Positions 20,187-31,176 of a DNA stretch of 64,000 bases are shown piece by piece. The position numbers were made by a program, and so were the translations under genes. The notes under the pieces were generated by a model. It saw only the letters and a program-made list of their open reading frames with translations. It did no database searches and was not told the origin of the DNA. Source of the DNA: Paenibacillus bovis (lineage in GTDB: Bacteria > Bacillota > Bacilli > Paenibacillales > Paenibacillaceae); NCBI RefSeq assembly GCF_001421015.2, contig NZ_CP013023.1, positions 62,001 through 126,000 on the forward strand, in the 5' to 3' direction. Each line of letters starts with the position of its first letter. Positions within the stretch are counted from its first letter, which is position 1.

Positions 20187-20256
<70 letters not shown>

Positions 20257-20457
20257 AATAAATGATGCCGGATGAATTCTATTTTATCCAATCCCTGGCG
20301 CTTTATGAAATGCGCATTGTATATACCATGTAAAAAAATAATACTTAATCCTACTTTTTAAAACGTTTCCGGCTGCTTATCCGTCTATATAGAGGGAAGA
20401 AGAACTCCATTTCCGCAAGCCTGGAGAAGAACCGGATTATTCAATATAAAAGAAAAG

Positions 20458-20478: not shown

Positions 20479-20926
20479 TTCACTCGGTACTGCTCTATTA
20501 TTCAGGGAATGTTATTGGTGTTCTATGATATAAACTGCTGTACTACTTATGTGGTTAGGCTACTTGTACTGCTTACTTGCTACGATGAATCTACTGGCTA
20601 CGGTCTTGCTACAACTTGCTAAGCAATGCTCTACAATCTAATTTCACCGCTATGTCAAAAAGCTTCGTTCTTGTGTGGTTCATCCTCTGCCGCCCCCGCG
20701 GTATCGATCCAATGCGGTGAAATCATAGTGGCAGGTGAAACGTTACGGCAAATAGAGTGACAAGTCGAAGGTATCAGAATTCTATCTGTATGCTGCCTGA
20801 TTACCATCGCCTGTATGTCTATTATTGCAGCAGTTTACAAAAAACAGACTTATTTTTTTTGTAATCACTCCCTTTTTTTTCATGTAATGATTCTATTATG
20901 GAATTAATATGCGCAATTATGTAACG

Positions 20927-20994
20927 TTACCAAAAACGAACCCGGCAGCTTTTGAGTAACCTGTATAATAATAAAAATTATCTTTTTTTGGTAA
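20927..20994. promoter_or_regulatory. Inverted repeat TTACCAAAAA / TTTTTGGTAA flanking a -10-like hexamer
   Basis: Two perfect 10-bp inverted arms (20927-20936 and 20985-20994) lie 48 bp apart and bracket TATAAT at 20964-20969. They lie about 220-290 bp upstream of the first regulator gene. No good -35 is seen. The spacing suits a dimeric DNA-binding protein bridging a promoter, and the array's own HTH proteins are candidates. This is inference only. Confidence 0.3.
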
Positions 20995-21216
20995 AGTAAG
21001 GTGGAATCATCCATAGATATCTCTGCTAATAACGCATCTATGCTCTACTGTATCCGCGTATATAAAAGCAGAATAGATACAGATTCACCTATTTAGCAAA
21101 TAATTTTTGGAACGTATTAGATCGGTCACTACGTAAAAGGTGATATAGGTCGTACAATAAATGGCAGCTCTGAATATAGCAACGTCTATGTTAATTCAGG
21201 AAAAGAGGTGATCCGC

Positions 21217-22566
21217 GTGAATAATCTAATCACATTACGAACCGAACTAGAGCAGGAGATTGCACGGCAGGGTTATTCTCTGAGCAGCTTCAGCAAAGCC
21301 TCAGGAATCAACCGGGGAATTCTGAGCGCTACCCTGAACGGCAATCCTCCTAAACCCATGTCGATCAACCAGCTAGACCGGATGTCCGCTACTCTCGGTA
21401 AGCCCGAAGGCTGGCTGTATGAACAGTTTATAGAAGAAAGCTTTAGTGAGCAGGGCAAAGCCAATTGGCGTCGTATCCGGCCACTGCTGCTGCGATGTAT
21501 GGAGATTCATCGAAACGATTTGATCGAGCGTACCCTGTATCTGTTGATGGAAGACCCCAACCATGTTGGACACGTCTTCGAGCTGGCCGAAGAACAAGTC
21601 CAAGCTGGCGCTACAGTGGAAACGGTTCCTTTTTATAAATGTGTAATTGAGAATGAGCGGAATTACCAGTCGGAGCGTCTGGCGATCAGCCAGTATAGGA
21701 TTTTCCGGGCTTCTCTGGGGCATAATATTGAAGATAATCTGAAAGCGGCATTGATTTTCGAGCCATTTCGGCATCGGCTGCCGGATTATTTGAAGCTGGA
21801 TGCGCTGCTTAAACTGTCTATTGTAAATTATACCGTTCGAAATTGGGATATAGTTATCAAATTATCACAAGAGTTATATGACATATCCAGTCGTCTTCAT
21901 AAGCAAAAACTGCAAGCAAAAGAAAAAAGTAAAGAATTTAAAATTCCCTTTACTGAACGCCCTCTTATCGTGTACTACGGTCAAAGCCAGTTGATGCAAT
22001 TCGTTGCTAATGAACATTTGGAAGATTATGAAAAAGCAAGCGTGCATCTCAAAAAGTTCTCTAACCTTCACTGGTTTGAAGATGATCATCCTGAAAATCA
22101 AAAGTATATTGAACGCTTCGACTTCTTTGCTATGCTTAATGCGTTGAACCTAGAGATATTAACTGGCAATCAGGACAAATTAAATGAGTATTTTGATCTA
22201 CTAAAAAAATATCCTGAAGAAGTTCTACCTAGTCTTTTGATTATTATCAAAGCAGCCAATACTCATGATTACGACATTGACCATTTTCTTACTTATTATG
22301 ACGATATCATCTATCCAGAAGATATTATGGAATTTTTATTTAGTGAACAGGATGGCAATCGACTTTACTATGAGGTCTCAGTAGGAATTACTCGGTACGT
22401 CAACATGTATTATCAATTGGCTATCTATCACTGTAATCGCAAAATGTACGATGAAAAACTGGAGAAGGTTCTATATAGGTTGGAATCCACTGTCGAAAAA
22501 TACAATCGTGGACGGATTATGGATTGCCTTAACCTTTTCAAAAAATTAAGAGAATTCACAAAATAG
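21217..22566 (+). CDS. AimR/Alo-like RRNPP-type regulator 1 (HTH plus TPR-like sensor)
   Basis: This protein of about 449 residues has an N-terminal HTH of XRE type (residues 5-60, SLSSFSKASGINRGILSATLN) followed by an all-helical region of degenerate TPR-like repeats to the C-terminus. The central RPLIVYYGQSQL block and the C-terminal YNRGRIMDCL block recur in all or most paralogs. The architecture is that of RRNPP peptide-sensing regulators, and by size and layout it resembles AimR and the Alo receptors reported from Paenibacillus. The GTG at 21217 follows AAGAGGTG by 6 nt; a GTG at 21208 is the alternative. The 3' half is more AT-rich than the 5' half. No peptide gene is visible at its end. 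Confidence 0.75.
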   Translation: MNNLITLRTELEQEIARQGYSLSSFSKASGINRGILSATLNGNPPKPMSINQLDRMSATLGKPEGWLYEQFIEESFSEQGKANWRRIRPLLLRCMEIHRNDLIERTLYLLMEDPNHVGHVFELAEEQVQAGATVETVPFYKCVIENERNYQSERLAISQYRIFRASLGHNIEDNLKAALIFEPFRHRLPDYLKLDALLKLSIVNYTVRNWDIVIKLSQELYDISSRLHKQKLQAKEKSKEFKIPFTERPLIVYYGQSQLMQFVANEHLEDYEKASVHLKKFSNLHWFEDDHPENQKYIERFDFFAMLNALNLEILTGNQDKLNEYFDLLKKYPEEVLPSLLIIIKAANTHDYDIDHFLTYYDDIIYPEDIMEFLFSEQDGNRLYYEVSVGITRYVNMYYQLAIYHCNRKMYDEKLEKVLYRLESTVEKYNRGRIMDCLNLFKKLREFTK

Positions 22567-22629
22567 CAGCATGAATAAGACAATATGGTTACTACACTCT
22601 ACAGAATGCGTAGAGTACGAGGTGAAAAC

Positions 22630-23994
22630 ATGACGCAATTAAAAACCCTGCGACACGAATTAGAGAAAGAGATCCTTCAGCGGGGTTACAGTCTGAGCAG
22701 CTTTAGCCGTCTATCCGGTGTGAATCGCGGCGTATTAAGTGCTACGCTTAATAGCAAAATTCCCAAACCTATCTCCATCCATCAGCTGGATCAGATGAAT
22801 CTGGCTTTAGATAAACCTCCAGGTTGGCTATACGATTTATTTATTGAAGAATGCTTTTCTGCAGAGGAAAAGTCCAATTGGCGGCGTGTTCGCTCACTAA
22901 TCATACGCTGTGTAGAATTGCAGCGAAGTGACCTGATAAATCGTATCTTATATTTACTTTTGGACGATCCATCTTATATCGACGAGGTATTTCGTCTCGC
23001 CGAGAACCTGATCCAAAAAGAAGAAAATCTGGCGATTCTACTATACAAATACGTTATTGAATACGAGCGTAATTCACACTCTGAACGTCTTGCTGTGAGT
23101 CATTATCGTATCTTTAAATCATTGATTGGAAATAATATCGAAACCAACCTGAAGGCAGCTTTAACTTTTGCTCCTCACCGCAATCTTCTACCGGTTCCGA
23201 TGCAGTTGGATGCCTTGCTAAAACTTGCTAATATTTATTACTCACTGCAAGATTGGGAGCAGGCGGTAAACATGGCAGATGAGCTTTACCGACTTAGCTC
23301 CAAGGCATATCAACTAAGAATGCAAGCCAGACAAAATCATGGAGTCATTCCTTTTCTTGATCTGGAACGACCTCTTGTTGTGTATTATGGACAGGGATTA
23401 TTACTTAAATGTGCTGTATACGAAGAAGAAGAAAAGTATGACAAAGCACAGATATATGTAGATTTATTTGCAGATTTGCAATGGTTTGAGGATGAGCATG
23501 CCGAGAACCAATACTATATTGATCGTTTTCGATTCTACTCCATAATTCATACTATGAATCTGGAACTGCTAACCGGCAAGGAACAGGTACTCGACAGGTA
23601 CCTTCAGATTCTGGAACAGCATCCACAGGAAGTTTTGCCTTCTACGTTAATCATTATCGAAGCAGCCAACAAATATGGCTACAATGTTGACCCACTGCTT
23701 AGTCGCTATGAAGATATTATTTATCCTGCTGATATTCTGGATTATCTTATAGCAGGAAGCAAAGCCAGATACAACTATCAGGACGTGACCATAGGTATTA
23801 ACCGATATATAGACCTCTATTATCAATTGGCTATCTATTACTGCGATCGGAACGTATACGACGAACGGCTGGAAAAAATCCTGTATACACTCGAATCTAC
23901 AATTGAGCAGTATAATCGTGGACGCATTATGGACTGCCTTCATCTTTTCAAAAGGCTCCGTAAATTAACCGAGTCCTTGGAAAAACAAGTATAA
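22630..23994 (+). CDS. AimR/Alo-like RRNPP-type regulator 2
   Basis: This 454-residue paralog of the first regulator lies only 63 nt downstream. The HTH is SLSSFSRLSGVNRGVLSATLN, and the sensor part carries the RPLVVYYGQGLL and YNRGRIMDCLHLFKRLRKL blocks. The ATG at 22630 is supported by GAGGTG six bases before it; an upstream in-frame start at 22585 lacks a site. The helix predicted to read DNA differs from copy 1 at only a few positions, while the helical sensor is much more diverged, so it probably recognises related DNA but a different ligand. It may be co-transcribed with copy 1. Confidence 0.75.
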   Translation: MTQLKTLRHELEKEILQRGYSLSSFSRLSGVNRGVLSATLNSKIPKPISIHQLDQMNLALDKPPGWLYDLFIEECFSAEEKSNWRRVRSLIIRCVELQRSDLINRILYLLLDDPSYIDEVFRLAENLIQKEENLAILLYKYVIEYERNSHSERLAVSHYRIFKSLIGNNIETNLKAALTFAPHRNLLPVPMQLDALLKLANIYYSLQDWEQAVNMADELYRLSSKAYQLRMQARQNHGVIPFLDLERPLVVYYGQGLLLKCAVYEEEEKYDKAQIYVDLFADLQWFEDEHAENQYYIDRFRFYSIIHTMNLELLTGKEQVLDRYLQILEQHPQEVLPSTLIIIEAANKYGYNVDPLLSRYEDIIYPADILDYLIAGSKARYNYQDVTIGINRYIDLYYQLAIYYCDRNVYDERLEKILYTLESTIEQYNRGRIMDCLHLFKRLRKLTESLEKQV

Positions 23995-24145
23995 GGTATT
24001 ACTCTATATCTATACTTTAGCGATTCAACACAGGATTGGGGTAAAATCTTCAGGTACTAAGTTATCAAATCCTTGGTATGTCATTTCTACTACAAATGTC
24101 ATTATTGCATAAGTTGTCTTTCTGTAAGAAAAGGGGAGATCCAAA

Positions 24146-25516
24146 GTGAACCGTATCCTGACCGTTCGTGAAATCTTGACAAAAGAAATGCGTTCACAAT
24201 ACTACACCATTAATTCTTTTAGCAAAGCATCCGGAATTAATAGAGGTGTGTTAAGCGCCACTATAAATGCTGATCCACCTCGCCCCATTTCAGTGAATCA
24301 ACTCGATCGCATGGGAGAGACACTGGGTAAGCCGGAAGGATGGCTTTATGAACAATTTATTGAAGAAGCCTTTTTGCAGGATACCAAAGTGAATTGGAGA
24401 AGGGCACGTCCCTTGCTCCTTCGCTGTATACAACTAAATCGCATTGAACTCATAGACAAAATAATGGATTGGATAATGAAAGATGTATCTTATCTGTCCC
24501 AGATTTTCGAATTAGCAGAGCAGTTAACAGCTGATAGCCAACTGCGAGGTGCCCTTCCTCTCTATAGGAATATTATTCAATATGAGCGGAGTTACCAGTC
24601 AGAGCAATTAGCAGTCAGCCAATATCGTATCTTCCAGGCTGCAGCTGGAGAAATGATTGGTCAGAGTTTCAAAGCTGCGCTGATATTCCAGCCTTATTGT
24701 GCCCATTTGCCTGAGCATTTAATGCTGGACGCTCTTCTTAAGCTCTCCAATATTTATTTTACAGTCAAAGACTGGGAAGCCATGTCCGACTGTGCCGACA
24801 AATTAATGGAACTTAGTCACTCTATATATGCTCGCGAATATAAGCATCAATCAGCAAAGCATCGTACTCTCCACGTCAATACCAGTCGGCCTCTGGTTGT
24901 TTACTATGGTCAAAGTTATTTGATTAAGTTTACGGCTGCCGAATTCACCCAGAATTATCAGGAAGCAAATGATTACCTTTCCAAATTCTCGGATTTAAGC
25001 TGGTTTGAAGGGCTGGATGAGGAAGGACGTAATGAAGTCGCAAAGTTTACAATGTATGCGGATATAAACTCCCTGAATATCGAACTGCTGCAAGGCAACC
25101 ATAACGTATTACCTGAATACAAAGAACTTTTATTCAAGTATCCTGGTGAAATTTTGGCCAGTGTGAATGTGATCTTGTACGCGGCTAATCTGCATGGATT
25201 TAACGTAGGCGACATTCTGGAGACTTTTCACGAACATATCTATTCATTCGATTCGGTCAATTTAATAGCAAGGTTTGAAACAGTAGAACATAATTATAAA
25301 GATCTATCGATAGGAGTTAGCCGCTATATCAATCTGTATTATGAACTTGCTGTATATCACTTTGACCAGAAATTGTATAACCATGACTTGGAAGCTATTT
25401 TGAATATATTGGAGCATGTTGTTCAAAACTATAGCTACGAGCATATATTAAACAGCCATACCCTTTTGCAAAAAATCAGAGAGATGAATTCAAATTTATT
25501 CACACCATATAAGTGA
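24146..25516 (+). CDS. AimR/Alo-like RRNPP-type regulator 3
   Basis: The 456-residue paralog begins at a GTG 8 nt after AAGGGGAG. The HTH reads TINSFSKASGINRGVLSATIN, followed by the PPRPISVNQLDRM and GWLYEQFIEEAF segments shared across the array. The helical sensor includes RPLVVYYGQSYLIKF and DLSWFEGLDEEGRNEVAKF; copies 4 and 5 share the second block as GLDEAGKKEVHKF and GLDEDGEKEVHKL. Copies 3-5 thus look like one subgroup, separate from 1 and 2, which have EDDHPENQ/EDEHAENQ there. A 151-bp gap precedes it, enough for its own promoter. No cognate peptide gene is seen. Confidence 0.75.
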   Translation: MNRILTVREILTKEMRSQYYTINSFSKASGINRGVLSATINADPPRPISVNQLDRMGETLGKPEGWLYEQFIEEAFLQDTKVNWRRARPLLLRCIQLNRIELIDKIMDWIMKDVSYLSQIFELAEQLTADSQLRGALPLYRNIIQYERSYQSEQLAVSQYRIFQAAAGEMIGQSFKAALIFQPYCAHLPEHLMLDALLKLSNIYFTVKDWEAMSDCADKLMELSHSIYAREYKHQSAKHRTLHVNTSRPLVVYYGQSYLIKFTAAEFTQNYQEANDYLSKFSDLSWFEGLDEEGRNEVAKFTMYADINSLNIELLQGNHNVLPEYKELLFKYPGEILASVNVILYAANLHGFNVGDILETFHEHIYSFDSVNLIARFETVEHNYKDLSIGVSRYINLYYELAVYHFDQKLYNHDLEAILNILEHVVQNYSYEHILNSHTLLQKIREMNSNLFTPYK

Positions 25517-25558
25517 TCTGGCACCTATATGTAAAACAAGCTGTTGGAGATGATAATT

Positions 25559-26908
25559 GTGCAGCAGGCTTACTGTTTGAACCATATAATCAAAAAAGAA
25601 ATTCGGCAGCAAGGCTTCTCCTCGATCAGTCATTTCAGTAAAGTATCCGGCATCAATAGAGGCGTATTAAGCGCTACGCTGAACGAACATTCACCCAAAT
25701 CCATTTCGATTCAGCAGCTCGATCAGATGAGCAAAGCGCTGCACAAGCCTCCAGGCTGGCTGTATGATGAATTTCTCATGGAGTCTTTCCCATCCAACGA
25801 TAAACTGAACTGGCGCAAGCTAAAGCCTTTTCTGGTACGCTGTATACAGCTGAACAGAACGGCTAATCTTCATGCCCTGCTGGATAGGCTCGCTTCCCTT
25901 CCCGGGCAGCTTAATCACATATTTGAACTAGCCGAAGAGCTGGTGCAGGAGAACGATTATATAGCTATTCGTGACTTGTATGAGACGATTATCCGTCATG
26001 AAAAGGATCATCATTCCGAGAAGCTCGCTATCAGCCATTATCGTATATTTAATATGGAGATCGGGCTGGATCTAGAGAAAAATTATCGGGTAGCTATCAG
26101 CTTTGAGCCGTTTTATCAGAAGCTGCCTATCCATCTGAAACTGGATGCGCTGCTGCAGCTTGCTTTTCATTCGTATATTTTGCAGGATTGGGAACGGGTC
26201 AAAAAGTATGCTGTCGAGCTGCATCAATTGTCCCGTTCGCTTTATGAGCAGTTGTACACTCAAGAATCGACTGGCGAATCGGCTGTTCTCTCTTCCCTGC
26301 TTCGGCCTTTGGTTGTCTATTATGGGCAGAGTTACTTACTGCGCTTTTGTTCGCTTGAACTTGAAGGAAAGTATGAAGAAGCTCGACAATATCTGGAGCC
26401 ATTCAGAGACCTGAGCTGGTTTCGCGGCCTGGACGAAGCTGGCAAAAAAGAAGTACACAAATTCAGTCTGTACGCCAAGTTCAACGAATACAATCTTGAA
26501 CTGCTGCAAGGTAATCAACAAGCACTTCCTCGTTACCTGAAGCTTATGGAAGAACATCCTCTGGAGATCCTTCCGAGTCTGTTCATCCTGCTCAAAGCAA
26601 GCAATATTCACTACTGGAATATCGATCCTGTACTTGCCCAGTATGAGGACGTGATTTATCCTGCAGATATGCTGGAAAGTATTAATATTCGGCAGTCCTA
26701 TACGGCTCAAGCTGACTTGAATCGCCATGTTCATATTTATTACCAACTGGCACTGTATCACCTTAATCGTGGCAAGCCGCTGGAGCAGTTGGATGTCATT
26801 TTATCCGCTATGGAAGAGACGATTAAGAACTTTAATAACTCCAGAATTGTGGATTGTCTGGCCTTGCTGCATAAGTTACAGACGATTCCTAAAATGGAAA
26901 CCAAATAA
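25559..26908 (+). CDS. AimR/Alo-like RRNPP-type regulator 4
   Basis: This paralog of about 449 residues follows copy 3 after 42 nt. The GTG at 25559 aligns with the other N-termini and follows GGAG; a TTG at 25544 and an ATG at 25550 are in-frame alternatives. The HTH is SISHFSKVSGINRGVLSATLN, and the sensor has RPLVVYYGQSYLLRF and GLDEAGKKEVHKF. The gene is less AT-rich than copy 5. It is followed by its own terminator at 26923-26949, which ends the transcript containing copies 3 and 4. No exported peptide frame is visible before that terminator. Confidence 0.75.
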   Translation: MQQAYCLNHIIKKEIRQQGFSSISHFSKVSGINRGVLSATLNEHSPKSISIQQLDQMSKALHKPPGWLYDEFLMESFPSNDKLNWRKLKPFLVRCIQLNRTANLHALLDRLASLPGQLNHIFELAEELVQENDYIAIRDLYETIIRHEKDHHSEKLAISHYRIFNMEIGLDLEKNYRVAISFEPFYQKLPIHLKLDALLQLAFHSYILQDWERVKKYAVELHQLSRSLYEQLYTQESTGESAVLSSLLRPLVVYYGQSYLLRFCSLELEGKYEEARQYLEPFRDLSWFRGLDEAGKKEVHKFSLYAKFNEYNLELLQGNQQALPRYLKLMEEHPLEILPSLFILLKASNIHYWNIDPVLAQYEDVIYPADMLESINIRQSYTAQADLNRHVHIYYQLALYHLNRGKPLEQLDVILSAMEETIKNFNNSRIVDCLALLHKLQTIPKMETK

Positions 26909-26922
26909 CCATTTCATTTCCC

Positions 26923-26949
26923 GCCGTCTATCCTCCGTGATAAGACGGC
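26923..26949 (+). terminator. Terminator after regulator 4
   Basis: GCCGTCT and AGACGGC pair over 7 bp with a 13-nt loop, followed by TTTTG. It lies 14 nt past the stop of regulator 4 and isolates regulator 5 and its peptide gene as a separate unit. Confidence 0.65.
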
Positions 26950-27101
26950 TTTTGATTTATGATACCTAAATTTGTACCAATCCATTAAAAGTAATTGACC
27001 GCAGTTCAAAGCCTAATATATAATGTAATAAATTTGAAGATCATGGGTTTACTGGGGCGCAACAAACGGGAAACTTTCGGAATAAAGGGGTGTGTTCGGT
27101 T

Positions 27102-28514
27102 ATGATTACCAACACCACAACCATACGACTTGAGATTGAAAAAGGTATTCGACAAAAAGGACATTCACTTAGCAGCTTTGGTAAACTGGCTGGAATTAAC
27201 CGTGGTATTATCAGCGGTATTTTGAATGGTAATCCGCCCAAATCGATTTCCATCCGCCAACTGGATCTAATGGCCGAAGCACTGGGTCACCCTGAAGGCT
27301 GGATGTATGAGTATTATGTGGATGAATGCTTTATCAATGAAAAGGCTGACTGGCGGCGGATTAAAGCATTTTTGTTAAGGTGTACAGAGATTGGAAGATA
27401 TGACTGCATTCAGGCGGTGTTGGATCGCTTGATGGAAGATTTATCGAATACGGTTTCTGTATTTGGTTTGGCTGAGGAATTGTATGAAGAAGGCAAAGTA
27501 AAAGAATCTCTGCCTTTTTATGAATGCGTTATCGAGAATGAGAAACATCAACATTCGGAGAGACTGGCAATTGCTCATTATCGGGTTTTTAGAGCATCTA
27601 TTGGTGAAAATACAGAAGAAACTTTTAGAGCAGCAGTACGTTTTGAACCATTCCGGGATCGCCTCCCTGAAAATTTTATGTTAGATGGATTATTTTATCT
27701 CGCTAATATTTATTATTTATTACAGAATTGGGATACAGTAGAGAGGTATGCAGAGGAGTTATCTAATTTAGTTACAATGGTTTATAATATTGAGTCAAAA
27801 AAAATAGATAATGACAATTGTTATTTACCTATAAAAACTGAAAGACCTTTGGTTTTTTATTATGGTCAATCTTCGCTAATTAAAGGTGTAGCTTTAGAGC
27901 ATAAAGGCCATTATGAAGAGGCAAAAAAATACATTCTTCAATATATGGATTTAAGTTGGTTTAAAGGTTTGGATGAGGATGGCGAAAAAGAGGTTCATAA
28001 GCTTACTTACTTTGCAACAGCTAACATGTATCTTATGGACGTAATGATGGGTAATATTACTGTTCTACCTCAGTATATAGGATTTTTAGAAAATCATCCT
28101 GAAGAGATTCTTCCTGCAATATCTAATATTTTAAAAGCTGCTAATGAATATGAGTTTGATATAGATGAAATATTATCTAAATTTGCTAATGTTATCAAAA
28201 ATGATTTTGTATACAGCAAATCACAAAGCAAAATTAGTCTTACAAGTCGATATATTAATTTACATTATCAACTTGCAATTTATAATTTAAGAAAACAATC
28301 GAATAATGAAGGTATTAGTAATTTAATTGAAAGCTTAAAGCTTTCAATTAAAATATATAATAAAAATAAAATATTAGATATTATAGCATTAATGCAACAA
28401 ATAAAGTCTATAGCAACTTCTGAACAATTAGCTGAATATGAGAATTTGTTGAAAGGAGTCGGCTCAGATGAAAAGATTAACAATTTCGTTCATTCTTTTT
28501 TTAGGTCTAATTAG
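27102..28514 (+). CDS. AimR/Alo-like RRNPP-type regulator 5, coupled to an exported peptide gene
   Basis: This 470-residue paralog has an HTH (SLSSFGKLAGINRGIISGILN) that is the most diverged of the five. Its TPR-like sensor has RPLVFYYGQSSLIKG and GLDEDGEKEVHKL. Its C-terminus runs about 20 residues beyond the others. Base composition changes sharply near 27690: the HTH half resembles the neighbours, while the sensor half is strongly AT-rich, pointing to a recombined sensor. The ATG at 27102 is preferred; a GTG at 27090 is possible. Its last 47 bases overlap a 39-codon gene for an exported peptide in the +1 frame. That is the usual receptor-pheromone arrangement of RRNPP systems. Confidence 0.8.
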   Translation: MITNTTTIRLEIEKGIRQKGHSLSSFGKLAGINRGIISGILNGNPPKSISIRQLDLMAEALGHPEGWMYEYYVDECFINEKADWRRIKAFLLRCTEIGRYDCIQAVLDRLMEDLSNTVSVFGLAEELYEEGKVKESLPFYECVIENEKHQHSERLAIAHYRVFRASIGENTEETFRAAVRFEPFRDRLPENFMLDGLFYLANIYYLLQNWDTVERYAEELSNLVTMVYNIESKKIDNDNCYLPIKTERPLVFYYGQSSLIKGVALEHKGHYEEAKKYILQYMDLSWFKGLDEDGEKEVHKLTYFATANMYLMDVMMGNITVLPQYIGFLENHPEEILPAISNILKAANEYEFDIDEILSKFANVIKNDFVYSKSQSKISLTSRYINLHYQLAIYNLRKQSNNEGISNLIESLKLSIKIYNKNKILDIIALMQQIKSIATSEQLAEYENLLKGVGSDEKINNFVHSFFRSN

Positions 28515-28587
28515 CATTTTACCTGTTTCTCCTCTTACCAATATGAATTCAGAGATAAATACTAAAGACCATGGTATGGGATTCTAA
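28468..28587 (+). CDS. Exported 39-residue peptide pheromone precursor (Phr/AimP/AloP-like)
   Basis: This small gene starts inside the 3' end of regulator 5 and runs in the +1 frame. AAAGGAG at 28452-28458 stands 9 nt before the ATG. The product begins MKRLTISFILFLGLIS, a basic N-terminus followed by a hydrophobic core up to about residue 23, as in secretion signals. It continues with a short polar tail ending NTKDHGMGF. In RRNPP systems the mature signal is cut from the C-terminus of such a precursor outside the cell and re-imported by an oligopeptide permease to bind the adjacent receptor. The stop is followed within 4 nt by a strong terminator. The mature peptide is not determined; the last 5-10 residues are the best guess. 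Confidence 0.72.
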   Translation: MKRLTISFILFLGLISILPVSPLTNMNSEINTKDHGMGF

Positions 28588-28590
28588 AAA

Positions 28591-28627
28591 AACAAAGTCC
28601 TTTAAAAGTTATTTAAAGGACTTTGTT
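28591..28627. terminator. Bidirectional terminator between the peptide gene and the ABC-F gene
   Basis: A perfect 16-bp stem (AACAAAGTCCTTTAAA and its complement) with a 5-nt loop is flanked by seven A on the left and eight T on the right. It ends the regulator 5/peptide transcript on the plus strand and the ABC-F transcript on the minus strand. Confidence 0.92.
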
Positions 28628-28641
28628 TTTTTTGTGATTAT

Positions 28642-30264
28642 TTATCTTGGATAATCCTCATAGTTCCCCAACGTTACTCTAAGTTCCCCATCCTCCAGAC
28701 TCCATATCTGGCCCGCAATCCGGTTAATAAAATACCGATCATGCGACACTGTCAAAATCGTCCCTGGAAACTCCTCCAACGCCTCTTCCAATGCTTCTCT
28801 TGAGGAAATATCCAGATGATTCGTCGGTTCATCCAGAATCAGCAGATTCGGACGCTGGTGCATTAGTATCGCCAAACGCAAACGGCTCCATTCGCCACCC
28901 GACAATCCTGATACTTTCTTGAATACATCTGCTCCATAAAATAAGAATTTCGCCAGCTGCCCTCTTGCCTGGCCTTCTTCCATCCGAGCTTCCAGCTTGA
29001 ACCACTCCAGCACCGTCTCGCCACGATCTGGCGGAGCGGCCTCCTGAGCGAGGTAACCGACATCGGTACGGGAGCCTAGTGTTAGGCTTCCTGCATCCGG
29101 TTCTTCTTGTCCGAGCACCATGCGCAGCAGGGTTGTTTTGCCTGCTCCATTGCCGCCGATAATTGCGGCATGCTCCCCATACCGCAGCAGCGCAGACGCT
29201 TCCTGCAGCAGAATCTTGTCGCCATAGCCTTTCCATACCTGATCCAGCACGAGTACCCGGTTACCCGAGCGGTCGCGTTGACGCCAATCCAGATCCATCT
29301 GGGCACGGTCCATGACCGGGCGTTTGACCTTTTGCATCCGATCCAGTGCTTTTTGCATAGAAGCAGCTTTTCGGTGGAATCCAGGGTTCGGCGGATTGGA
29401 GCGGTTGCCCCATTCGATCAGGCGCTTGATCGATTCCTGGATACGTTTGATCTCCTTTTGCTGTTCTTGGTAGTCTTCGAACTGGCGAACAAGTCGGCGC
29501 TGCTTTTCTTCTCGGTACGCAGAATAGTTCATCGGGTAGGTGGTTGCTTCGCCGTCTTCCAACTCGATGATCTCTTGTACGACCTTATCCAGAAAATAGC
29601 GATCGTGCGAAATAATAACTACTGTCGCCGATGATCCGGTGATAAACTGCTCCAGCCAGACGACCGCTTCCATATCCAGATGGTTGGTCGGTTCATCCAG
29701 CAGCAGGATATCCGGATCGGTGAGCAGCAGCGCTGCAAGACAGACTTTGGTCTTCTCGCCGCCGGATAATCCATTGAACAGACGGTCGTAACGATCTGTT
29801 CCAATACCGAGACCATTGGCAACGGCATCGATCCGGGCAGATATGGCATAGCCGCCCGCTTCTTCAAATTGATCCAGTGCTTCGCCATATTGACGAAGTA
29901 CTTTTTGCATATCTTCTTCGGACAGACTGCTATCTGCCATTTGTATGGTCAGCTCTTCCATCCGCTGCTGCAAAGCAAGCAGTTCCCGGAAGCTGCCGCG
30001 CAGTACATCCAGAATCGTGGTACTGTCTTCGTAGGCAGGAACCTGCGCCAGATAACCTACACGGGCGCCTTTTTGAATATGCAGACTGCCCTGATATGGA
30101 CGTTCCTGGCCGGACAGCATGCGGAACAGAGTGGTTTTACCGGCACCGTTGAGACCGATCAGGCCGGTTTTGCGGCCGCTGTGAATTTCGAGGGTAACGC
30201 TGGACAGGACCTGCTGGGCCCCATAATATTGTTGAACCTGCTGACAGGCAATCATAATCGACAT
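28642..30264 (-). CDS. ABC-F family ATPase (ribosome-associated type)
   Basis: The 540-residue protein has two fused ATP-binding cassettes and no membrane segments. The first has Walker A GLNGAGKTT (about 37-45), signature LSGGEKTK and Walker B LLLDEPTNHLD. The second has GGNGAGKTT, LSGGEWSRL and LILDEPTNHLD. The linker between them is the charged helical hairpin of ABC-F proteins, with EWGNRSNPPNPGFHRKAASMQKALDRM. ABC-F ATPases act on ribosomes as translation factors, and some members displace antibiotics; which class this is cannot be told here. GAGGAG precedes the ATG at 30264. A long heptanucleotide repeat lies about 105 bp upstream, close to where its promoter should be. Confidence 0.88.
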   Translation of the reverse strand: MSIMIACQQVQQYYGAQQVLSSVTLEIHSGRKTGLIGLNGAGKTTLFRMLSGQERPYQGSLHIQKGARVGYLAQVPAYEDSTTILDVLRGSFRELLALQQRMEELTIQMADSSLSEEDMQKVLRQYGEALDQFEEAGGYAISARIDAVANGLGIGTDRYDRLFNGLSGGEKTKVCLAALLLTDPDILLLDEPTNHLDMEAVVWLEQFITGSSATVVIISHDRYFLDKVVQEIIELEDGEATTYPMNYSAYREEKQRRLVRQFEDYQEQQKEIKRIQESIKRLIEWGNRSNPPNPGFHRKAASMQKALDRMQKVKRPVMDRAQMDLDWRQRDRSGNRVLVLDQVWKGYGDKILLQEASALLRYGEHAAIIGGNGAGKTTLLRMVLGQEEPDAGSLTLGSRTDVGYLAQEAAPPDRGETVLEWFKLEARMEEGQARGQLAKFLFYGADVFKKVSGLSGGEWSRLRLAILMHQRPNLLILDEPTNHLDISSREALEEALEEFPGTILTVSHDRYFINRIAGQIWSLEDGELRVTLGNYEDYPR

Positions 30265-30369
30265 ATTGTATATTCTCCTCTATAGACTGCAGAGAAGATC
30301 AGGATGAACGGTACGAACAGGAATTGCATCATTCGCCAGTGGAAACCGGATTAGACTCATGGTCACTTT

Positions 30370-30500
30370 CAGCGATCAGCGATCAGCGATCAGCGATCAG
30401 CGATCAGCGATCAGCGATCAGCGATCAGCGATCAGCGATCAGCGATCAGCGATCAGCGATCAGCGATCAGCGATCAGCGATCAGCGATCAGCGATCAGCG
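30370..30500. repeat. Heptanucleotide tandem repeat, (CAGCGAT)18
   Basis: Eighteen perfect CAGCGAT units plus a partial CAGCG span 131 bp. Since 7 is not a multiple of three, all three frames stay open and cycle, giving a false repeated peptide. Adjacent units create a GATC every 7 bp. It lies 106 bp upstream of the ABC-F start on the opposite side from its gene body. Confidence 0.96.
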
Positions 30501-31176
30501 GAATTGTAATGATGGCTCCTCTCCTTTGGAAGAGGTAAAATCCTGTTTCGTACGCATATTTACGAATAACAGGCTGTTTGTTCGGCATACCTGTTACTGT
30601 TTATTGTTCATTCTGTCTGTTCGTATCTGCAGCTGTGTGTATTTTTGAAGGAGAAATGCGCTGCTGCCTGTCAGCCCGGCGGAATCGCCGGAATCCCATA
30701 TGTTCATTTGCCAATTGTATACATGAACATACGAAAAAACCGCAGGGAAATGTCCCTACGGCTGTACGATAAAAGATATCCCCGGATTACCGGGCATCTC
30801 TGGGTACAGACGCTTCATGCGCCGATACGGATCACAGAGATGTAGATCGCATGAAACAAGCAGGCATAAGAGTCATCTGTAGAGAGCATTATACTCTATT
30901 ACAGATACCCCTCACAGGCTGCTGATGATCATGCTACATGTCCGACCGAGGCTGAAGGCAGGAGCGGCATTTCGCCATTGTACGAGTATTCATTTTTGGA
31001 CAGACTTCTCCCGTCTTCACGAAATGAATGTACAATACTACAGCTGCCCAGCGGTCTGCGCTCCAGCGTAATAAATAATGGGAAAGTTAACATCCTGCCT
31101 CACCTCCTTGGTTGTAACGGATCAGGAATAGCCCAGGCTCCTTCCCGGGAGCGGTGGATTCGCTGATTCGTTGTGA
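30501..31176. other. Intergenic stretch without a supported gene
   Basis: The 680 bp between the heptanucleotide repeat and the VanZ gene hold several short open frames (30578-30772, 30645-30845, 30978-31166), none with a family match or a sensible ribosome site. One hairpin is visible at about 30741-30764 (CCG-AGGGA / TCCCT-CGG). Its surroundings AAAAAACCGCAGGGA suggest a minus-strand terminator of a lost gene. Confidence 0.5.

Follow-up and report, generated by a model that had tools for sequence, protein, structure and literature searches.

The small open reading frame (ORF) at positions 28468–28587 of a 64,000-nucleotide (nt) stretch of Paenibacillus bovis DNA (the window) is very probably aloP, the gene for the signal-peptide partner of R5, which closes a tandem row of five AloR-type regulators (R1–R5), with export and maturation of its product predicted from the sequence. 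The sensor half of R5 and aloP are mosaic between species, which suggests that signal-and-sensor cassettes ("pherotypes") have been exchanged under a frozen DNA-binding half. The 39 codons and stop of aloP encode MKRLTISFILFLGLISILPVSPLTNMNSEINTKDHGMGF, with a hydrophobic core (12-residue hydropathy peak, 2.75). The gene lies in the +1 frame relative to R5, overlaps it by 47 nt, carries AAAGGAG 9 nt before its ATG and is directly followed by a strong terminator, the 71-nt stretch over which folds at −23.9 kcal/mol (z −6.6; 0/200 shuffles as good). The frame, its overlap with R5, the ribosome site and the terminator, together with the row of five regulators, had been read from the letters in an earlier note on this DNA, and the coordinates bear this out. 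P. wulumuqiensis has the same allele (38/39 residues), and its sole difference, K33T, falls just outside the predicted hexamer. Given this shared allele, orthologs in other species, and similar pairs elsewhere in the genus and family, the note's suggestion of a probably strain-specific peptide was rejected.

Peptide genes were called by fixed criteria, namely 30–70 amino acids, Lys or Arg near the start, a hydrophobic core and a ribosome site, with the start within −135 to +150 of the upstream stop codon. R5 relatives occurred in 28 of the 98 searched genomes, the window's own included, and the named loci found are those of P. wulumuqiensis, P. nuruki, P. hunanensis and P. dauci, all Paenibacillaceae. 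From the loci of matching genomes, P. hunanensis and two further genomes (G191 and G174), we took 153 different AloR ORFs with a minimum length of 380 amino acids, a sample that is part of all AloR matches and from which receptors with internal stops were dropped. A peptide ORF with a ribosome site was found for 68 of these 153 genes versus 2 of 176 other genes of the same loci; three of the 68 (L056 3672, L078 4458 and L155 7233) were judged spurious from their tails, leaving 65. The earlier note had proposed seeking the same overlap in related genomes, and this search was productive: the R5 clade comprises seven orthologs (FastTree support 1.00), each with a peptide ORF, and the ribosome site recurs in the other six. 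The start position and tail of aloP are conserved among them, with six of the seven tails reading HGxG or NGxG and that of P. dauci reading ENGMNG. Within the surrounding 31-member clade (support 0.995), none of the remaining 24 members (R1–R4 and 20 relatives) has a detectable peptide gene.

It is very improbable that the frame arose by chance or is a leader without signalling function. The ORF is short, and libraries of hidden Markov models place it in no family except a PHROG of unknown function (E 0.098), but its presence in all seven orthologs, the excess behind AloR genes, and the conserved start position and tail argue against a fortuitous frame. The ratio of nonsynonymous to synonymous divergence (dN/dS) against P. 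wulumuqiensis, 0.11 on one amino-acid change, points the same way.

The nearest characterized system is described by Voichek et al. (2020; PMC7425212, here as far as its accessible text goes). There, the mature peptide of AloP13, SHGRGG, is the last six residues of its propeptide; it showed activity from 10 nM upward and turned off a target reporter. Mass spectrometry detected fragments of 9 of 14 AloP peptides, and some AloR receptors are without peptides. Genome G191, which encodes the AloP13 propeptide stretch exactly as printed there and was taken as P. polymyxa, has AloR13 as its best match to R5 (46%), next to a receptor without a peptide call that was taken as AloR14. The tails align as TKDHGMGF in the window, LEHGIG and LEHGMG in P. 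nuruki, and SSHGRGG in AloP13. Because AloR13 is the best match and the tails align, the window pair is, by sequence, a new Alo member whose nearest characterized relative is AloR13–AloP13 of P. polymyxa; support for a clade uniting R5 and AloR13 is weak (0.67). The two systems share a homologous receptor, an overlapping propeptide (by 50 nt in AloP13), a hydrophobic N terminus, the C-terminal pattern xHGxGx and, from the same accessible text, an adjoining receptor without an intact peptide (AloR14). They differ in that the window has four tandem orphans rather than one, the tail DHGMGF, and a mosaic of sensor and peptide between species that was not found in the accessible text of PMC7425212; the Spo0E-like neighbor of Alo13, a frequent but not defining feature of Alo systems, is absent from the window.

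R5 and aloP also have the general features of Alo systems. R5 is an AloR homolog with an N-terminal helix-turn-helix (HTH; the HTH_3 match is just above the Pfam cut-off, 23.1 vs 23) and C-terminal helical repeats like those of tetratricopeptide repeat (TPR) proteins, for which the TPR matches fall below their cut-offs and the structure model has a pLDDT (predicted local distance difference test) of 88.7. Its start is likely ATG 27102, behind AAAGGGGTG. Downstream, the 39 residues of aloP lie within the 32–50 amino acid range of AloP ORFs, which have an N-terminal hydrophobic helix. We infer that R5 and aloP form a complete quorum-sensing pair. The overall interpretation of the earlier note thus stands for the type of pair, an RRNPP-type receptor with an overlapping downstream propeptide, and for a signal drawn from the last residues, but not for strain specificity or for its description of the regulators as AimR-like. 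AimR–AimP systems resemble the pair in joining an HTH and TPR receptor to a short signal gene downstream, but differ in showing no sequence match: phmmer against Protein Data Bank sequences returned no AimR chain at E ≤ 1. R1–R5 are AloR relatives by sequence, and the AimR label was rejected on that ground. The idea that the locus is an arbitrium (AimR–AimP) lysis–lysogeny system of a prophage remnant is extremely unlikely, given this result and the spread of R5 relatives through more than a quarter of the searched genomes.

The mosaic is sharply bounded. Against P. dauci, identity in 60-nt windows is 0.90–1.00 over 26941–27600, 0.33–0.73 over 27601–28680 and 0.90–0.98 over 28681–29000, with breaks near R5 codon 170 and just beyond the terminator. 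R5 codons 1–170 are 99% identical at the amino acid level (synonymous divergence, dS, 0.24; nonsynonymous divergence, dN, 0.003), the sensor half from codon 171 is 43% identical (dS 1.73, dN 0.49), and aloP is 34% identical over 35 aligned codons (26% in a nine-row alignment). The flanking gene at 28642–30264, an ABC-F-type ATPase by reading of its sequence, is 96% identical (dS 0.55), and the sensor halves of R1–R4 are 80–90% identical, without an R5-like fall in protein identity. Against P. wulumuqiensis, both halves of R5 are close (100% and 95%; dS 0.30 and 0.21), with R1–R4 at 66–92% and dS of at least 0.75 and the flanking gene at dS 1.07. Since the surrounding sequence is mostly nearer P. 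dauci than P. wulumuqiensis, yet the signal type is common to the window and P. wulumuqiensis, we take the pattern to reflect replacement through recombination. Across the seven orthologs, R5 codons 1–165 are 91–100% identical, even at saturated dS, and the sensor is 42–61% identical between signal types and 95–96% within the two shared types (the window with P. wulumuqiensis, and P. nuruki with genome G005). Low G+C was not taken as proof of transfer, since most of the AloR genes listed have less G+C in their C-terminal part than in their N-terminal part.

One could instead suppose that aloP is real but that the fall in R5 identity reflects fast co-evolution in place, under positive selection and without recombination. 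Receptor–signal pairs are known to diversify, and the sensor dN is high; dS also rises within orphan R1 (0.58 to 1.87), so dS can vary along AloR genes without an evident swap. We nevertheless regard in-place co-evolution as quite unlikely, because synonymous divergence jumps sevenfold at a sharp edge within R5 and exceeds that of the flank, and because the window and P. wulumuqiensis have a sensor allele in common at a dS far below that of R1–R4 and the flanking gene.

Similar breaks at other loci are consistent with cassette exchange. Between genomes G015 and G006, two different paired receptors have N-terminal halves with dS of 0.33 and 0.27 and sensors with dS of 2.99 and 1.77 (dN 0.49 and 0.38); the fall lies near codon 160 in one and within codons ~180–210 in the other. 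Two nearby orphans in this comparison (L053 5244 and 6598) have a sensor dN of 0.03 and sensors about 95% identical, and the orphan nearest the pair (L053 3600–4931) lies in diverged DNA (0.58–0.83). When a swap was defined as a sensor dS more than twice that of the N-terminal half with a sensor dN of at least 0.25, in cross-genome comparisons with an N-half dS of at most 0.8, it was seen in 12 of 28 comparisons of paired receptors vs 1 of 13 of orphans; these comparisons overlap and are non-independent. Three loci are clear cases.

Several results weigh against parts of this account. The synonymous climb in R1 has a counterpart in R4 (1.24 to 2.64), both with sensors 82–84% identical to those of P. 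dauci, and one orphan pair (L046 2780 and L047 2959) has an HTH dS of 0.62 with a sensor dS of 1.70 and dN of 0.373; the split is therefore not confined to paired receptors. The species comparison uses one genome per species. In a fold search with the R5 model, generic TPR proteins score as high as RRNPP receptors. No Spo0E-like target gene lies in the window, although the genome holds five PF09388 matches over the cut-off, two of them near other AloR genes. The hexamer length is assumed by analogy; the first aloP of P. nuruki and G005 ends in IGIKK, and the P. dauci tail is the ENGMNG noted above.

Within the array, no peptide gene was found behind R1–R4 by the fixed criteria, weaker frames without a ribosome site being set aside. 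With dN/dS of 0.04–0.21 against P. dauci, these regulators are proposed to be tandem relatives without peptide genes, maintained under purifying selection; this absence, like the mosaic, goes beyond the earlier note. A terminator-like hairpin precedes R5 (−13.6 kcal/mol, z −3.0, 1/200 shuffles as good). It is unlisted by the terminator scan, but P. wulumuqiensis and P. dauci retain its stem through a paired change, and P. nuruki has a different hairpin. Downstream of it, the R5–aloP promoter hexamers are identical in seven species (six aligned and G001). The evidence for this promoter is its conservation, because a scan of the region finds 30 sites where shuffles lead one to expect 28.6. Together, the hairpin and the conserved promoter make R5–aloP most likely a transcription unit separate from R1–R4. 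Strong conservation between species continues past the promoter into the R5 5′ leader (27025–27101). Rfam gave no match at E ≤ 1 over 20900–28700 around the array, and a genome-wide search for the promoter pattern returned no other gene, only the locus itself.

This arrangement bears on the possibility that R1–R4 sense the same AloP as R5, so that one signal serves five receptors. The tandem layout, HTH parts that are 47–66% alike, and near-invariant sensor asparagines (312 and 352 in R1, R3 and R4; 352 in R2) speak for a common signal, but the hairpin and promoter divide R1–R4 from R5–aloP, and the R5 sensor type changes between the window and P. dauci whereas those of R1–R4 stay alike. On balance we consider a shared signal unlikely. 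A further lead is position 343, which is Ser in R1–R4 and in 10 of 10 receptors whose peptides have NGx[G/N/A/D] tails. Ser343 is absent from R5 (Ala) and from 33 of 34 receptors with HGx[G/N/A/D] tails, 44 of 68 peptides being classable. Since it came out best in a scan of 474 columns and rests on four independent contrasts (4/4 agree, p 0.125), it is a lead only. The features are collected in Table 1.

Table 1. Features of the AloR array and of the R5–aloP unit, in window coordinates.
Feature	Coordinates	Strand	Remarks
R1, AloR-type orphan	21208..22566	+	41% to R5; no peptide call; in lineage adjoining R5 in tree
R2, AloR-type orphan	22585..23994	+	38% to R5; no peptide call
R3, AloR-type orphan	24146..25516	+	39% to R5; no peptide call
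R4, AloR-type orphan	25544..26908	+	41% to R5; no peptide call
Terminator-like hairpin between R4 and R5	26923..26949	+	T-rich tail to ~26961
Promoter-like TTGACC-18-TATAAT of R5–aloP	26995..27024	+	11/12 match to promoter hexamers
R5, AloR-type regulator paired with aloP	27090..28514	+	best P. polymyxa match AloR13, 46%
Exchange cassette (approximate; putative): R5 from ~codon 170, aloP, terminator	27600..28680	+	identity vs P. dauci
AAAGGAG, ribosome-binding site of aloP	28452..28458	+	9 nt before ATG 28468
aloP	28468..28587	+	39-residue propeptide; predicted signal DHGMGF = residues 34–39
Terminator-like hairpin of R5–aloP	28586..28632	+	terminator scan and fold test

The window lies on a 5.35-Mb contig (G000:C1) of a genome with 10 AloR matches, five of which belong to the array. 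A second contig of 163 kb carries its own AloR–AloP pair (L067, G000:C2:62000–68000) with the tail MIHGEGA and a Spo0E-like match nearby; part of this contig gave no PLSDB match at megablast sensitivity. Upstream of the array, about 11 GCTGTT units (20188–20257) can be read as Leu, Cys, Ala-Val or Asn-Ser runs, and upstream of the flanking gene a tandem repeat at 30359–30509 reads (SDQRSAI)n in one frame. Elsewhere, Brevibacillus phage SecTim467 (KT151957.1:67447–68790) encodes an AloR relative with 35% identity to R5 over 96% of R5. The third P. hunanensis receptor (L042:7381–8715) is broken by an internal stop codon, and the ORF filter excluded it; a 45-amino-acid ORF behind it, without a ribosome site and reading through the R5 promoter, was rejected as a peptide gene.

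Signals are sometimes multiplied. Two aloP genes stand behind the R5 ortholog in P. nuruki (L041:10379–10631) and G005 (L047:8605–8858), with the tails LEHGIGIKK and TLEHGMG, which looks like signal-gene duplication. In propeptides overlapping the end of paired AloR genes at L052, L053, L056 and L063, the presumed signal itself is doubled, as SNGSGG twice in G013, G014 and G015 and SHGDGY twice in G063. The following comparisons draw on the accessible text of each source. Horizontal spread and signal-gene duplication are reported for Rap–Phr systems (Even-Tov et al. 2016, PMC5199041), a likeness to the two aloP genes of P. nuruki; Rap receptors differ in having no HTH DNA-binding domain, which that subfamily lost (PMC12700828). 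A structure tree in the latter source groups AloR and AimR in one clan. In the Bacillus cereus group, four PlcR–PapR groups and seven NprR–NprX pherotypes are described (PMC4147580), signal-specificity groups of the kind proposed here but in other receptor subfamilies. PlcR specificity is reported to depend on few peptide and sensor residues (PMC4147580), whereas most of the sensor half differs in R5. The word pherotype is absent from the main text of PMC7425212, and exchange of sensor and peptide in Alo systems was not found in the titles and abstract openings covered, among which subscription journals are little represented. The gene is genuine and its kind is known, with a variant architecture not found described in that literature.

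In the proposed working of the pair, R5 and aloP would be transcribed together, as a single unit bounded by a promoter and terminators of its own. The N terminus of the propeptide, which resembles a signal peptide, would direct export, and cleavage would free a C-terminal peptide. This is most likely DHGMGF, which matches AloP13 in position and pattern. The peptide would then be re-imported by an oligopeptide permease and bind the TPR half of R5, altering the action of the HTH half on promoters, and would probably switch R5 off, as reported in the accessible account of AloR13. Recombination would replace the sensor half and aloP together across species while the DNA-binding half stays nearly fixed, giving several signal types with one regulatory output. 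A more speculative extension, to which we give little credence, is that the array acts as a listening post, with R5–aloP as an exchangeable "own dialect" on a fixed DNA-binding half and the orphans, their sensors tuned to other signal types, sensing the peptides of rival strains and reporting to related promoters; the Ser343 pattern is a lead in this direction.

Together, these findings offer a new, precisely predicted Alo signal, DHGMGF, and a natural experiment on peptide–receptor specificity in related species. As near-identical DNA-binding halves carry different sensor and signal cassettes, synthetic hexamers together with native alleles of the receptor would allow specificity to be tested directly. 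The pattern suggests that dialect diversity like that of PlcR, NprR and Rap extends to Paenibacillus, a genus with uses in agriculture.
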